This document shows positions 5,787-21,761 of a stretch of DNA of 36,051 nucleotides, piece by piece (the first letter of the stretch is position 1; each line of letters begins with the position of its first letter). Origin of the DNA: Ktedonobacterales bacterium (GTDB taxonomy: Bacteria; Chloroflexota; Ktedonobacteria; Ktedonobacterales; DATBGS01); assembly GCA_036557285.1 (NCBI GenBank), contig DATBHW010000047.1:101001-137051 (forward strand). The letters run 5' to 3'. Position numbers and translations under genes: made by a program. The notes under the pieces are model-generated. The model did not search any database, was not told the DNA's origin, and was given only the letters and a program-made list of their open reading frames with translations.

Positions 5787-5895
5787 CGCCTCTCCTCACG
5801 ATGAGATCATACGAGATATAGTCCCGCGCCCTTTTGGAGCGATGGCCTGGATAGCTGGTTCTCCTGCTGAGCAGTATAGCCCATCACAGCGCCTA

Positions 5896-6110
5896 GTTCC
5901 ACCACCTATCGGGGGTTGCCACTTGTAGCGCCGCCTTCCAGGCGGCTCAACGCTGGCCTGCTAGTGTGCTGGCCCGCAGGGCAAACGCTCGCCCTGGCGC
6001 AGCGGTGGCCGCCTGGAAGGCGGCGCTACAGGTGGCGCAGCGGTGGCCGCCTGGAAGGCGGCGCTACAGGTAACACGCCTCGCCTGCCAACCCCTCATGT
6101 TTGGCGTCCC
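5896..6110. mobile_element. Hairpin-repeat MITE copy 1
   Basis: The left end reads GTTCCACCA at 5896-5904, then a tract with ATCGGGGGTTGCC. A left hairpin arm (GTAGCGCCGCCTTCCAGGCGGC type) follows, then a middle segment. Two tandem copies of the right arm (GCCGCCTGGAAGGCGGC) come next, and a degraded right end ...TTGGCGTCCC stops at 6110. No target duplication is visible. The right end lies 42 bp before the -10 box of the 6199 gene. The rest of the 411-bp gap 5787-6198 holds that promoter and the upstream region of the dehydrogenase. Confidence 0.75.
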
Positions 6111-6198: not shown

Positions 6199-7443
6199 AT
6201 GGACGACAACTACTTCGAGGTCGAGGACTCAACGCCGCTGCCGAAGCAGCAGCAGCACACCGATGACCTGCCGCAGATCGATCTGGAGCCGGAAGGACCG
6301 CGCCCGCCCTCCCGACGCAAGCGCCTGACGCAGATCGGCCTCGTACTTGGCGCGCTCGTCGTGGTCCTGGTGACATTTCAGAGCGCGCTCGCGCCATCTC
6401 ATCCTGCGCCCAGCGCCCCCACCCCCCTGCCGACCATCCCGCCGCCTCTCGCGGTGATCAGCAGCAATATTAACTTCGGCGCCGTCACCATCAACGGCCT
6501 ACGGCAGCGCGGCACGGTTCCCATGTTCTTCAGGCCACACGACACGACCTATACGGTCATCATCAACGCGTCCCCCTTCCGGCCAGTATCCTGCACCTTC
6601 ACGTTTTTTCGCGGCGCGCCTGAACCTACCGGGCCGGGCTGCTCCATCAACTCCGACAGCTTCCAGACGATCACCGCCAACGGCATCACCGCTGCTCCCT
6701 CCTACTGGGTTGAGATTGATTTCACAGCGAGGGATTTGCCAGCCGACCAGCGCAGCCAGATCAACGCGCTGCTGGCCCATTCGGTCATCGCAGAGCAAAC
6801 CACGACGGTTCCCGCAGGCTCTTATATCGCCACCAGCCTCAACGGAGGCGGCGCGATTACCAGTCGGCGCGCCGGCGCCGCGCTCAAGGGCACTGCATCC
6901 CTGGCCGCCAGCGACAACATCTGGCAGATCGGGTTCGATTGCATCGGGCTGATCTGCCAGGCCGTCGCTGACCCGCGAACCCTCAGCGCCTTCACCGGCA
7001 TGGCCTGGGTAATCGGTGTGCCAGCCGCGCTGCGCTGGCGCTTTACCACGTCAGCCGGGCAGATGCTTGGGGATGTCTCCTTTCCGGTTTTTGAGACGCT
7101 GCCAGCCCTGCTGACCTACTCGCCCGACAACGGTTGGAGTTTCTTATACGAGCTAGACTTTAACCCGCCCAGCACTGCGGCTTCGATAGGCATTGTGGAC
7201 TGCAATACCGGCGCCCAGGTGTTGCAGCAGCAAATCCAGTACATGAGCTTTGGCTTCGCCACGACCAGCGCCGACCAGGGAATCGAGGGCTGCCAGATCA
7301 CCTTGCAGGACACTGGCGGGACTGGCCGGGGCAGCTTCATCTGGCGCTTTGGGGTGCTGCTGGCTGCCGACAGCGAGGCCCACCATCGGCTGCCCCAACT
7401 GCCTGTCGCCCCACCGGCAGAGATCGCCGCTGTGCAGGGCTAG
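6199..7443 (+). CDS. Membrane-anchored extracytoplasmic protein, unknown function
   Basis: 414 residues from the ATG at 6199, which has GGAGGGGG at 6183-6190. An acidic cytoplasmic N-terminus (about 1-40) ends in basic RRKR. One membrane helix (about 45-63) follows, then a Pro/Thr/Ser linker and a roughly 340-residue outer region rich in beta-type, Thr/Ser/Gly-rich sequence with six or so scattered cysteines that could form disulphides. I do not recognise the outer domain. It sits between the two S53 proteins and shares their layout (short cytoplasmic tail, single helix, low-complexity linker, outer domain), so a role at the cell surface together with them is possible but not shown. Confidence 0.8.
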   Translation: MDDNYFEVEDSTPLPKQQQHTDDLPQIDLEPEGPRPPSRRKRLTQIGLVLGALVVVLVTFQSALAPSHPAPSAPTPLPTIPPPLAVISSNINFGAVTINGLRQRGTVPMFFRPHDTTYTVIINASPFRPVSCTFTFFRGAPEPTGPGCSINSDSFQTITANGITAAPSYWVEIDFTARDLPADQRSQINALLAHSVIAEQTTTVPAGSYIATSLNGGGAITSRRAGAALKGTASLAASDNIWQIGFDCIGLICQAVADPRTLSAFTGMAWVIGVPAALRWRFTTSAGQMLGDVSFPVFETLPALLTYSPDNGWSFLYELDFNPPSTAASIGIVDCNTGAQVLQQQIQYMSFGFATTSADQGIEGCQITLQDTGGTGRGSFIWRFGVLLAADSEAHHRLPQLPVAPPAEIAAVQG

Positions 7444-7469
7444 GCATTCGCCCGCAGCCTTTGTCTCCT

Positions 7470-7631
7470 GGTTCCACCAATGATCGGGGGTTGCCGCTGG
7501 TAGCGCCGCCGTCTCGGCGGCTCAACGCTGGCCTGCTGGTGTGCTGGCCCGCAGGGCGAACGCTCGCGCTGGCGAATCGTTGGCCGCCGAGACGGCGGCG
7601 CTACAGGTGGCCCCCGCTTTTCGGTAGAACC
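7470..7631. mobile_element. Hairpin-repeat MITE copy 2, flanked by a 9-bp target duplication
   Basis: 162 bp. Left end GGTTCCACCA at 7470-7479, right end GGTAGAACC at 7623-7631. The 9 bases immediately outside are identical on both sides: TTGTCTCCT at 7461-7469 and 7632-7640. Inside, left and right hairpins have matching variable cores (GCCGCCGTCTCGGCGGC and GCCGCCGAGACGGCGGC). No ORF is present, so any movement needed a transposase supplied elsewhere. The right end lies 41 bp before a -10 box. Confidence 0.85.
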
Positions 7632-7647
7632 TTGTCTCCTATTCCCC

Positions 7648-7677
7648 TTGACATATGCCTCTCCCTCGCTCTATGCT
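7648..7677 (+). promoter_or_regulatory. Promoter of the second S53 gene
   Basis: TTGACA (7648-7653), 18 bp, TATGCT (7672-7677). The predicted start near 7684 gives a leader of about 140 bases before the peptidase ATG, which contains the small ORF at 7728. Confidence 0.65.
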
Positions 7678-7727
7678 TGAGCAGCGAAAGCGCGCGAGTT
7701 GAAGCCGAAGGAGCAGGGCCATGCACG

Positions 7728-7826
7728 ATGACCAGGGAGAGCGCCAAAGACTTCCTGCCTGCGCTGGTTGACGCGGCCAATCAACTGCCACAAACCAACG
7801 CGCAAGCAGGAGAACCAGTGCTATGA
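7728..7826 (+). CDS. Possible 32-residue leader peptide coupled to the S53 gene
   Basis: ATG at 7728 with AAGGAG at 7708-7713, a longish spacing. It encodes MTRESAKDFLPALVDAANQL and twelve more residues, and its TGA (7824-7826) overlaps the peptidase ATG (7823) as ATGA. It lies wholly in the leader of a good promoter. The overlap suggests translational coupling, but no homologue is known to me and a chance ORF is possible. Confidence 0.35.
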   Translation: MTRESAKDFLPALVDAANQLPQTNAQAGEPVL

Positions 7827-9373
7827 CCTTTTCTTCAGAAGCGGGGCCAGGCAAGGACCAGACCGCGACGGACGCGCCGCTGGACGATTCGCCTGTTCAG
7901 GAGCAGCCCCCGGCAAAACCGAACACGCGCCTCTTGTTCCTCCTCCTGGGGGGACTGGCGCTCCTCGTCATCTTCACTCCGCTGGCCCTGACGCTCGCGC
8001 AGCGCCCCGCGCCAGCGCCCATCGCGCAGACAACGCCAGCCGCCAGCCCAACGCCAGCGCCCACCCCTACTGAAACGCCGCCAGCCTACACGCCCGCCGG
8101 AACCGCGCCCACCAGCGCGCAGTGCCAGAGCCTCATCCACGCGCCCTGCTACAGCCCGGAGCAGATGCAGCAGGCGTTCCGCCTGACCCCGCTCTATAGG
8201 CAAGGCTATGACGGGCGCGGCCAGACCATCGTGATCCTGGGGACAGGCAAGACCACCACCCTTGCAGCCGATCTGCACCAGTTCGATCTGGCCTGGGGCT
8301 TGCCCGATCCCACCTTCACCATCCTGCACCCCTTTGGCCCGCCCGCGCCCTATACCTGCGCCGGTGGCATGGACGATCTCCAGCTTGAAAATACGCTCGA
8401 TGTCGAATGGTCGCACGCGATGGCCCCAGGAGCCAGCATCATCCTGCTCATCGGCTCCAACGACTCAGGCGGCCCGCGTTCGGCAAACTGCGCCTACGCC
8501 GGGCTGCTGGACGCCCTGGCTTATGCCGTTGATCAGCATCTCGGCAGTGTCATCTCAATCAGCTATGGCGGCAGCGAACTGGGCGACATCTCCGAAAGCG
8601 CCAGCGAAAAAGCGCAGGACCGGCGCTTTTTTAATCAAGCGCACGCCCTCTTCGAGCGAGCGGCAAAAGCAGGCATCACCGTCCTGGCCTCCAGCGGCGA
8701 TGACGGCGCCACCAACTTCAACAGCTTCTCCAATCCCTCGTCCGTTTGGGACCACCCCAACATCTCCTGGCCCGCCTCTGATCCGGCTGTCCTGGCTGTG
8801 GGCGGCACCAGCCTGGCGCTGGCAGACGCCAACGGCCTCTATGGCTCCGAGACGGTCTGGAACGCCGGGGGCGGCTCAACCGGCGGCGGCCTGAGCGCCG
8901 TCTTTCAGGAGCCAGATTACCAGCATGCCATTCCCGATCAGACCGTGCTGCATGGCAAGCGCGGCATCCCCGATATTTCCTTCCCGGCAGCCGTCAATTA
9001 CGCTCTCTATGGCTCATTCCTCATCGGAGAGCTTGGCGCGCATCGCTCGCAGTGGAGCCACTGGGACATCATCGGCGGGACCAGCGCCAGCGCCCCCTGC
9101 TGGGCCGGATTGATCGCCATCGCCAACCAGATGCGCGGCAAACCGCTGGGCTTGGTCCAGCCCGCCCTCTACAGCCTCATTGGCAGAGAGATGCACGACA
9201 TTATTACCGGCGATAACAGCCTGCATGGCGTGACCGGCTACCAGGCCCGGCCCGGCTACGATCTGGCTTCAGGGTGGGGTACGCCCATTGCCGATACGTT
9301 TCTGCCCGCCCTGATTCAAGCCGCCGACCTGCTCGCCGCTGGCTGCCCCAACCGCTACCGCGCCTGCCCTTGA
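7823..9373 (+). CDS. Membrane-anchored S53 family serine-carboxyl peptidase (kumamolisin-like)
   Basis: 516 residues. A cytoplasmic tail of 36 residues, a membrane helix at about 37-59, a Pro/Thr/Ala linker to about 95, then an S53 domain to the C-terminus. All catalytic elements are visible: Glu189 and Asp193 (ENTLDVEW), oxyanion Asp293 (SSGDDG), Ser421 in GGTSASAP, and the calcium site DIITGDN with GYDLASGWGTP. It is a predicted acid endopeptidase held on the outer face of the membrane (type II topology). Classical S53 enzymes carry a prodomain of about 150-200 residues before the core; here only about 40 residues separate helix and core. AGGAG at 7808-7812 supports the ATG. It is the active-looking paralogue of the protein at 2722. 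Confidence 0.92.
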   Translation: MTFSSEAGPGKDQTATDAPLDDSPVQEQPPAKPNTRLLFLLLGGLALLVIFTPLALTLAQRPAPAPIAQTTPAASPTPAPTPTETPPAYTPAGTAPTSAQCQSLIHAPCYSPEQMQQAFRLTPLYRQGYDGRGQTIVILGTGKTTTLAADLHQFDLAWGLPDPTFTILHPFGPPAPYTCAGGMDDLQLENTLDVEWSHAMAPGASIILLIGSNDSGGPRSANCAYAGLLDALAYAVDQHLGSVISISYGGSELGDISESASEKAQDRRFFNQAHALFERAAKAGITVLASSGDDGATNFNSFSNPSSVWDHPNISWPASDPAVLAVGGTSLALADANGLYGSETVWNAGGGSTGGGLSAVFQEPDYQHAIPDQTVLHGKRGIPDISFPAAVNYALYGSFLIGELGAHRSQWSHWDIIGGTSASAPCWAGLIAIANQMRGKPLGLVQPALYSLIGREMHDIITGDNSLHGVTGYQARPGYDLASGWGTPIADTFLPALIQAADLLAAGCPNRYRACP

Positions 9374-12993: not shown

Positions 12994-13009
12994 GAGCAAA
13001 AGCGCCAGG

Positions 13010-13178
13010 GGTTCCACCACCTGCCACTTGTAGCGCCGCCTTCCAGGCGGCTCAACGTCGGCCTGCTGGTACGGTGGCCTGGAGGGCGAACGTTCACGCT
13101 GGCGCAGCGTTGGCCGCCAGGATGGCGGCGCTACAAGTACCATGCCTCGCTTGCCAACACCTCCTGTGTGGTGGAACC
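13010..13178. mobile_element. Hairpin-repeat MITE copy 3
   Basis: 169 bp with clean inverted ends: GGTTCCACCA at 13010-13019 and TGGTGGAACC at 13169-13178. GCGCCAG occurs just outside both ends (13002-13008 and 13179-13185), probably a worn target duplication. The left hairpin core (TTCCAG) no longer matches the right (AGGATG), unlike copy 2. The centre carries GCGAACGTTC(A/G)C. Confidence 0.8.
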
Positions 13179-13189
13179 GCGCCAGCCGC

Positions 13190-13835: not shown

Positions 13836-14092
13836 GGTTCCACCAATGATCGGGGGTTGCCGCTCGTACCGCCGCCGTCCCTTCGGGAAGGGCCGCTTGC
13901 CTCGGCTATGCCTCGTCGAGCGAGAGGTCCTCGCTCCCGTTGGTCGCTCGCGCGTCCCTCCCGGCGGCCACCGCCGCGCCAGAGCGCGCGTGCGCCCTCC
14001 AGGCCACCGTACCAGCAGGCCAGCGTTGAGCCGCCGAGACGGCGGCGCTACGGGCTGGCCGCGCTTGTCAGCCCCTCATGTGTGGCAGAACC
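13836..14092. mobile_element. Hairpin-repeat MITE copy 4
   Basis: 257 bp; ends GGTTCCACCA (13836-13845) and TGGCAGAACC (14083-14092). The flanks GCGAACCGC and GCAAACGGT agree at 6 of 9 positions, perhaps an old target duplication. It contains extra hairpins with core GTCCCTTCGGGAAGGG in the left half and a matched GCCGCCGAGACGGCGGC right arm. It occupies over half of the 493-bp gap 13773-14265; the rest is the promoter and leader of the 14266 gene. Confidence 0.75.
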
Positions 14093-21013: not shown

Positions 21014-21514
21014 ATGCAAGACCAACCCGACCCCTGGCAAGCGCCGCCTGCGCCGCGCTTCAACTCGCCGCTGGGTGTAATCATCAGCGCACTCATTGTG
21101 GGGCTGCTGCTCTGCTCGTGCGCCGCGACGGCGCTGGTCCCGGTCTTTGTCGCCAGTTCGCCGCAAGAAACCACAACCGATCACGCCTTTCAGGTACTCT
21201 TCACGGCGCTCTTTGTGCTGTTGGGGCTGCTGCTGCTGCTGACAGAGCGCCAGCTTCTCCGCCGAAGCTGGCCGCGAACGCCCGTCTCCTTCGCCCGTCT
21301 GCTCTTCACCACCGCCTCCGGCATCACCTTCTGGACCGGCCTGGTCCTCTTTGGCATCGCGCTGGCGCGGCTGACAGCGCCCGCCGTCGCCGACCCCCTC
21401 AACATCGCCTTCTGGGCGGTAGCGGCCCTCTGGCTGCTGACCGAAATCATCTTGAACGCCCGCCACCTGCTGCGCCCGCGCCGCGCCCGCGCGCCCGGCC
21501 ACGACGAACTTTAG
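21014..21514 (+). CDS. Four-helix membrane protein, unknown function
   Basis: 166 residues from the ATG at 21014 (AAGGAG at 20996-21001); the upstream in-frame ATG at 20963 lacks a site. A Pro-rich cytoplasmic N-terminus (DQPDPWQAPPAPRF) is followed by four hydrophobic helices (about 20-45, 57-77, 92-117 and 126-148) and an Arg-rich tail (RPRRARAPGHDEL). Divergent from the phage tail-type gene, with 57 bp between starts. No family recognised. Confidence 0.75.
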   Translation: MQDQPDPWQAPPAPRFNSPLGVIISALIVGLLLCSCAATALVPVFVASSPQETTTDHAFQVLFTALFVLLGLLLLLTERQLLRRSWPRTPVSFARLLFTTASGITFWTGLVLFGIALARLTAPAVADPLNIAFWAVAALWLLTEIILNARHLLRPRRARAPGHDEL

Positions 21515-21761
21515 GTTCCACTACATATGAGGTATTGGCAAGCGAGGACGCCACTTGTAGCGCCGCCATCCTGGCGGCCCACCGCTGCGCCGTCATCAAC
21601 GTTGCCCTTCCAGGCAACCCCACTTGTAGCGCCGCCATCCTGGCGGCCAACGATTCGCCAGCGCGAGCGTTCGCCCTCCAGCGCAACGTTCCGGCAGGCC
21701 AGCGTTGAGCCGCCTGGAAGGCGGCGCTACAGGTGGCCCCGCCCCGGTAGGGGGTGGAACC
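21514..21761. mobile_element. Hairpin-repeat MITE copy 5
   Basis: 248 bp. Left end GGTTCCACTA at 21514, right end GGTGGAACC at 21753-21761. Two left arms with core CCATCCTGG and one right arm GCCGCCTGGAAGGCGGC. It begins directly after the stop codon of the membrane gene; no target duplication is visible. With the promoter below it accounts for the 353-bp gap 21515-21867. Confidence 0.75.

Follow-up and report, generated by a model that had tools for sequence, protein, structure and literature searches.

Short elements with ISKra4-type ends and REP-dimer cargo upstream of promoters in a Ktedonobacterales genome: a probable non-autonomous Mutator-like MITE family

Two described systems are closest to the repeats considered here. 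For the ISKra4 group (p-MULT 4), the consulted parts of PMC3942029 (Genome Biol Evol 2014) report 8- or 9-bp direct repeats and sigma-A promoters located at 13-17 bp on both sides, and for p-MULT elements they report circular forms in which 6-10 bp of donor flank lie between the ends. GTAG REPs, their dimers, and RAYTs are described in PMC3733652; for A. variabilis and H. neapolitanus, its consulted parts mention that REP dimers occur enclosed in other palindromes and offer no explanation. We analyzed a window of 36,051 nucleotides (G000:C47:101001-137051) from the genome of a Ktedonobacterales bacterium (5.1 Mb, 82 contigs). In this genome one mobile repeat is nested in another, an ISKra4-type MITE being wrapped around a RAYT-type REP dimer.

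A 162-bp element, for which an earlier note on this DNA had reported a 9-bp duplication, spans positions 7470-7631. The duplication was found as described: a perfect direct repeat, TTGTCTCCT, is present at 7461-7469 and 7632-7640, abutting the inverted ends. The left terminal inverted repeat (7470-7490, plus strand, GGTTCCACCAATGATCGGGGG) was assigned by the end consensus and by its match to ISKra4-type ends, and the right one (7611-7631, minus strand, read on that strand as GGTTCTACCGAAAAGCGGGGG) by the latter match; each is 21 bp long, and 16 of the 21 positions (76%) are complementary. The interval between them is occupied by a first REP, composed of GTAG and a palindrome (7500-7521, plus strand, GTAGCGCCGCCGTCTCGGCGGC), the spacer of the REP dimer (7522-7582), and a second, inverted REP (7583-7604, minus strand, GCCGCCGAGACGGCGGCGCTAC). 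The two GTAG-tagged REPs form an inverted dimer, which makes the interior fold into a single long hairpin (z -8.5). A 121-codon open frame crosses the element, but the length differences among copies (160, 161, 162, and 163 bp) would put any frame out of register. Beyond the right flank, a promoter of the sigma-70/sigma-A type, TTGACA-N18-TATGCT (7648-7677, plus strand), is the only promoter-like site within 7430-7850; its TTGACA starts 16 bp past the element, with TATGCT 18 bp further, and it presumably drives the gene of a subtilase-domain protein (7823-9373, plus strand).

Other copies lie in the window as well. A diverged second copy of 169 bp (13010-13178, plus strand) retains the worn 7-base duplication GCGCCAG, which had likewise been pointed out earlier and is indeed found at 13002-13008 and 13179-13185. 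A further copy of 257 bp (13836-14092, plus strand) has flanks matching at 6 of 9 positions, and in a degraded copy of 248 bp (21514-21761, minus strand) the duplication is gone. In another degraded copy (5895-6108, plus strand, the end coordinate being approximate) the left end and the REPs are recognizable and the right end has decayed.

The element ends matched the genome 205 times at up to 3 mismatches, versus 8 times for the reversed pattern. Stretches were read at 60 loci from the searches, 60 loci chosen deliberately, and 5 transposase loci, as well as in the window. Copies were called from the two ends alone, with the flanks unused, and removal of strand duplicates reduced 117 raw entries to 97 copies, a lower bound for the genome, as reading was confined to stretches around end matches. 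The copies vary in length between 68 and 388 bp, and 17 of them form a 175-bp class with an average identity of 91%. Two types of right end, GGTTCCACCAATTATCGGGGG and GGTTCTACCAAATCTGAGGTG, occur in the family, the commoner of them (GAGGTG) in 61 copies.

A duplication of 8 or 9 bp flanks 71 of the 97 copies. The flanks are identical at all 9 positions in 40 copies and at 8 of 9 in 21, an exact 8-bp repeat is present in 10, and the others match at 7 of 9 positions (7 copies) or fewer (19 copies), leaving 26 copies with no 8-9 bp duplication. For the raw entries, at least 8 of 9 flank bases are identical in 70/117, or in 82/117 if exact 8/8 repeats are included. With the right flank shifted by 1-15 bases, no more than 0-2 of the 117 raw entries reached at least 8 matches, and shuffling the flank partners gave a mean of 0.06 entries. 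A more loosely defined list of 82 rows, which includes 1-bp-shift duplicates and one chance pair, was left out of all counts. The duplications are not explained by chance, and the frequency at which they accompany copies defined by their ends, against a chance level of about 0.06, supports the earlier reading of the duplication as a mark of transposition. Base preference in the duplicated 9-mers is not strong. Being short and multicopy, with inverted ends and a target duplication, the elements have the attributes of MITEs.

A search for paralogous empty sites returned 10 spanning matches for 71 queries, several of which were self-overlaps and two of which were short REP matches; the only convincing one, at L051, matches at 82% over 97 bp. 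This locus (G000:C34 near 40182) contains several TGTTTCACGTGAAACA sites within positions 600-1790, which we take to be parS-like, and the element duplication adjoins one of them. When 68 reconstructed empty sites were compared with crude open frames of at least 150 codons (3 of the 71 had been left out for short flanks), 35/68 fell in such frames versus 55/68 random nearby positions, a weak test in GC-rich DNA full of open frames. The left ends examined led to no autonomous element; 57 ends that lack a partner seem truncated, degraded, or swapped or run into the border of a contig, and the only long end pair (2,293 bp) was taken as a chance pairing. The plasmid records searched contained no match to the element, and a search of Rfam gave no score near the gathering threshold. 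A contig scan for the end yielded one Chloroflexi MAG and one Pirellulaceae match, the latter judged to be a chance one.

Several loci retain traces of copy history. At L013 (G000:C35, positions 1461-1826), two elements stand head to tail with a 9-bp spacer, GACACGGAC, between them. The pair as a whole is flanked by a 9/9 duplication, and the spacer is identical to the duplication that flanks a different copy, L094; we calculate a probability of about 5e-4 that one spacer would by chance match, in either orientation, any of about 71 duplications. The arrangement may be the footprint of a circular intermediate. A second end lies exactly 9 bp away at L105 and L118. Elsewhere, the flanks of L071 (G000:C56:15715) and L091 (G000:C67:1769) have been exchanged reciprocally, so that each duplication is split between both loci, as a result of either recombination between copies or misassembly.

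The spacing between element and promoter seen in the window recurs across the family. Promoter-like sequences are located 15-17 bp from an end, on either side, in 44 of the 97 copies, with a maximum at 16 bp (33 copies) and smaller numbers at 15 bp (5 copies) and 17 bp (6 copies). As a control, 23 other offset triplets gave 0-2 copies each, with the mean being 0.4. Both orientations are represented: at distances of 13-18 bp, the promoter-like site lies beside the right end in 21 copies and beside the left end in 25. The distances of 15-17 bp fall within the range of 13-17 bp upstream of sigma-A promoters reported for some members of the ISKra4 group. Among 17 related loci, checked with up to 2 mismatches to the two hexamers, sites at 15-17 bp were also detected at L203, L212, L228, L229, L187, L196, and L238, and the remaining ones, including three autonomous copies in genome G044, had no clear promoter-like site at that distance. 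L196 (3697-3863, genome G119, Chloroflexota) has similar ends and stands 16 bp before a promoter-like site. A TTGACA-like peak at 12 bp beside seemingly standalone REPs (5/74) was discarded, since it arises from TTGCCA in unmasked right ends of the MITE, which had contaminated this control.

The ends themselves point to the ISKra4 family. In a search of 400 genomes of the phylum, the end was present in 12 including the window's own, with 143 matches in the latter and 1-4 in each of the other 11. The window-type right end agrees with those of ISKra4 elements from the same order at 19/21 (L222/L238) and 18/21 (L206) positions, compared with 6/21 for the ISKra4 subgroup with GGGTG ends; the agreement of the commoner, GAGGTG type with autonomous ends is weaker (12-16/21). 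Three elements (L206, L236, and L237) share one and the same sequence of 1,485 bp but have three different 9/9 duplications; they carry GGTTCTACCCAAAACCTGGGG at one end and encode a full-length ISKra4 transposase of 452 aa (NF033572, 211.5 bits at a cut-off of 205). L222/L238 carries GGTTCTACCAAAAACCGGGG and an ISKra4 remnant inside, and at L187, in a genome of the same order, two such ends enclose a C-terminal remnant of an ISKra4 transposase (E 1.7e-7). GGGTG ends with 9/9 duplications were found at 6 of 30 ISKra4 loci, and duplications are absent at L222, L211, and L216. The element resembles ISKra4 members in its 8-9 bp direct repeats and its homologous terminal inverted repeats, the 21-bp ends falling within the 18-39 bp, terminating in C, that are typical of the group.

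The earlier note had proposed to look for a transposase gene flanked by the same ends. Such genes were found in related genomes, where they belong to the ISKra4 family, but not in the window's genome, for which the family search gave 0 matches; in total, this family was present in 28 of 47 genomes searched, the window's own not being among them. The transposase partner is accordingly deduced from other genomes of the order. As the search detected no ISKra4 transposase gene in the genome, and the element itself contains none, we classify the element as an ISKra4-group MITE rather than as an IS. The transposase search in the window's genome returned DDE_Tnp_1 (5 matches), ISL3 (1 remnant), IS256 (1), ISKra4 (0), and Y1/RAYT (6) families. 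One DDE_Tnp_1 match proved to be an element with CAGGGC ends of its own and a 9-bp repeat. CAGGGC ends, a 431-aa open frame, and the 9-bp duplication TCCTGATGC are present at L062 (G000:C24:37892), presumably an ISAs1-like element.

The interior of the element belongs to a different system. The earlier note mentions neither the promoter targeting nor the RAYT-type REP dimer that makes up the palindromic part. REP hairpins number 846 in the window's genome at up to 1 mismatch, 16 in G003 from the same order, and no more than 5 in each of the other 59 genomes, which is about the control level. Exactly one forward and one reverse REP are present in 72 of the 97 elements. These repeats share with GTAG REPs and BIMEs the GTAG tag, the palindrome, and the arrangement in inverted dimers, and a RAYT gene is found near such REPs. 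Among the 6 Y1/RAYT matches, the gene at L235 (NF047646, 79.9 bits at a cut-off of 80) has REPs of the element type on both sides, and the gene at L234 (82.5 bits) has related REPs on both sides. Length classes such as 247 and 319 bp result from insertions into one of the two REP loops; GC-rich inserts of about 72 bp or more are located there in L069, L077, L080, L094, L097, and L111, and constitute a third level of nesting. A 68-bp copy, L114 (G000:C5:80568 region), has both ends, no REP, and flanks matching at 7 of 9 positions. In it, CCACC is followed immediately by AGTAACAC, with none of the TGTAG...CTACA that separates the two in other copies, and a 26-base pattern across the join matches exactly at L114 alone in its own genome, the other 36 of 37 matches having REP sequence on one side. 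This single copy is compatible with either an ancestor or a deletion. At L195 9633 (genome G203, same phylum), similar ends surround a different GTAG...CTAC hairpin pair.

The element is very probably a non-autonomous MITE of the ISKra4 group (p-MULT 4, prokaryotic Mutator-like) that was moved in trans with a REP dimer as cargo. This interpretation builds on the observed ends, duplications, copy number, and promoter spacing, and on the agreement of the ends with those of ISKra4 elements that bear a transposase in other genomes. A transposase supplied in trans would have recognized the GGTTC(C/T)ACCAA... ends, and an ISKra4 transposase would have moved the element end to end. It would insert in either orientation upstream of a promoter, at about 16 bp from the -35 box, and would duplicate 9 bp, sometimes 8 bp, of the target. 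The GTAG-type REP dimer inside the ends would be a passenger from the RAYT/REP system of the same genome, probably acquired in one or a few events and amplified together with the ends thereafter. The ISKra4 transposase that we infer to be the mover would by now have been lost from the genome or be missing in the assembly.

Alternatively, the whole unit could be a REP or REPIN spread by a RAYT transposase (HUH, Y1), with the flanking ends hitch-hiking. The genome does combine RAYT genes with 846 REP hairpins, and as the 97 elements hold just 177 hairpins (counted with a slightly different motif), most REPs are located elsewhere and have spread without element ends. A RAYT mover is nonetheless very unlikely, given that the duplications adjoin the outer ends and not the REPs in 71 of the 97 copies, that the 68-bp copy has ends without a REP, and that the ends match DDE-type ISKra4 elements. 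Moreover, Y1 transposition is not known to duplicate its target, and the whole element, with its duplications, differs in this from RAYT-mobilized REPINs. Hardly more credible is a mover from ISL3, IS256, or some other DDE family whose ends start with GG; traces of these two families are found in the genome as an IS256-type gene and an ISL3 remnant (L138) with GGCTCCACCAACCACCAGGG about 150 bp past the stop codon. ISL3 was favored at first for the GG-TCT-CC start and the end at L138, and was dropped in view of the ISL3 elements of relatives, where the ends could be fixed at 5 of 29 loci, which show 8-bp duplications and GG(C/G/T)TC(T/A)-type ends unlike those of the element; the combination of 8-bp direct repeats and GGCTCT-type ends seen in the ISL3 family is not that of the element. 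The search around the ISL3 and IS256 loci of the window's genome revealed no inverted repeat accompanied by an 8-9 bp duplication, and both the promoter spacing and the end identity favor ISKra4 over these families.

The least probable explanation is that recombination or gene conversion among the repeats accounts for most of the spread of the copies, the direct repeats being secondary. The reciprocal exchange of flanks between L071 and L091 indicates that copies recombine, or that the assembly was misjoined. However, recombination creates no direct repeat particular to each of 71 sites and sets no fixed 16-bp distance to a promoter, and as the main process it is refuted by the site-specific duplications.

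The biology of both the ISKra4 group and REPs is known, whereas their combination within an ISKra4-type MITE appears to be new. No description of an ISKra4 MITE with REP cargo was found in the literature searched, most subscription journals and ISfinder lying outside this search. REPs are usually discussed as being moved by RAYTs; here, a DDE transposon would be the vehicle, depositing them at a fixed distance upstream of promoters, and such a vehicle could explain why REP dimers have been seen within other palindromes. The family also offers a natural experiment on promoter-targeted insertion, with dozens of sites, a precise 16-bp spacing, and both orientations, and it persists in a genome in which the search for ISKra4 transposases gave no match. 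A broader idea, possible rather than probable, is that two mobile systems have fused: promoter-seeking Mutator-like MITEs might repeatedly take up REP dimers and deliver them upstream of promoters, more than once in Chloroflexota (cf. G203), with a cargo that may affect downstream expression.

With the ISKra4 group, as far as it is covered by the consulted parts of PMC3942029, the element shares the 8-9 bp duplications, the GG...CC inverted ends, the end sequence, and the site of insertion, which is upstream of sigma-A promoters at a distance of about 16 bp and on both sides. It differs from that group in having no transposase gene, in its length (68-388 bp versus about 1.5 kb in the relatives examined), and in carrying REP cargo. 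The interior resembles the GTAG REP dimers (BIME/REPIN) of the RAYT system, as presented in the consulted parts of PMC3733652, in the tag, the imperfect palindrome, the inverted dimers, and a RAYT gene flanked by the same REPs. Unlike the dimers of that system, those described here are located inside transposon ends, as a cargo whose movement would have left a 9-bp duplication. Modular MITEs such as BOX elements are short and non-coding and fall into modular length classes. The present family is similar to them in these respects, but its ends are different, and its length steps result from the number of REPs and from the inserts in REP loops.
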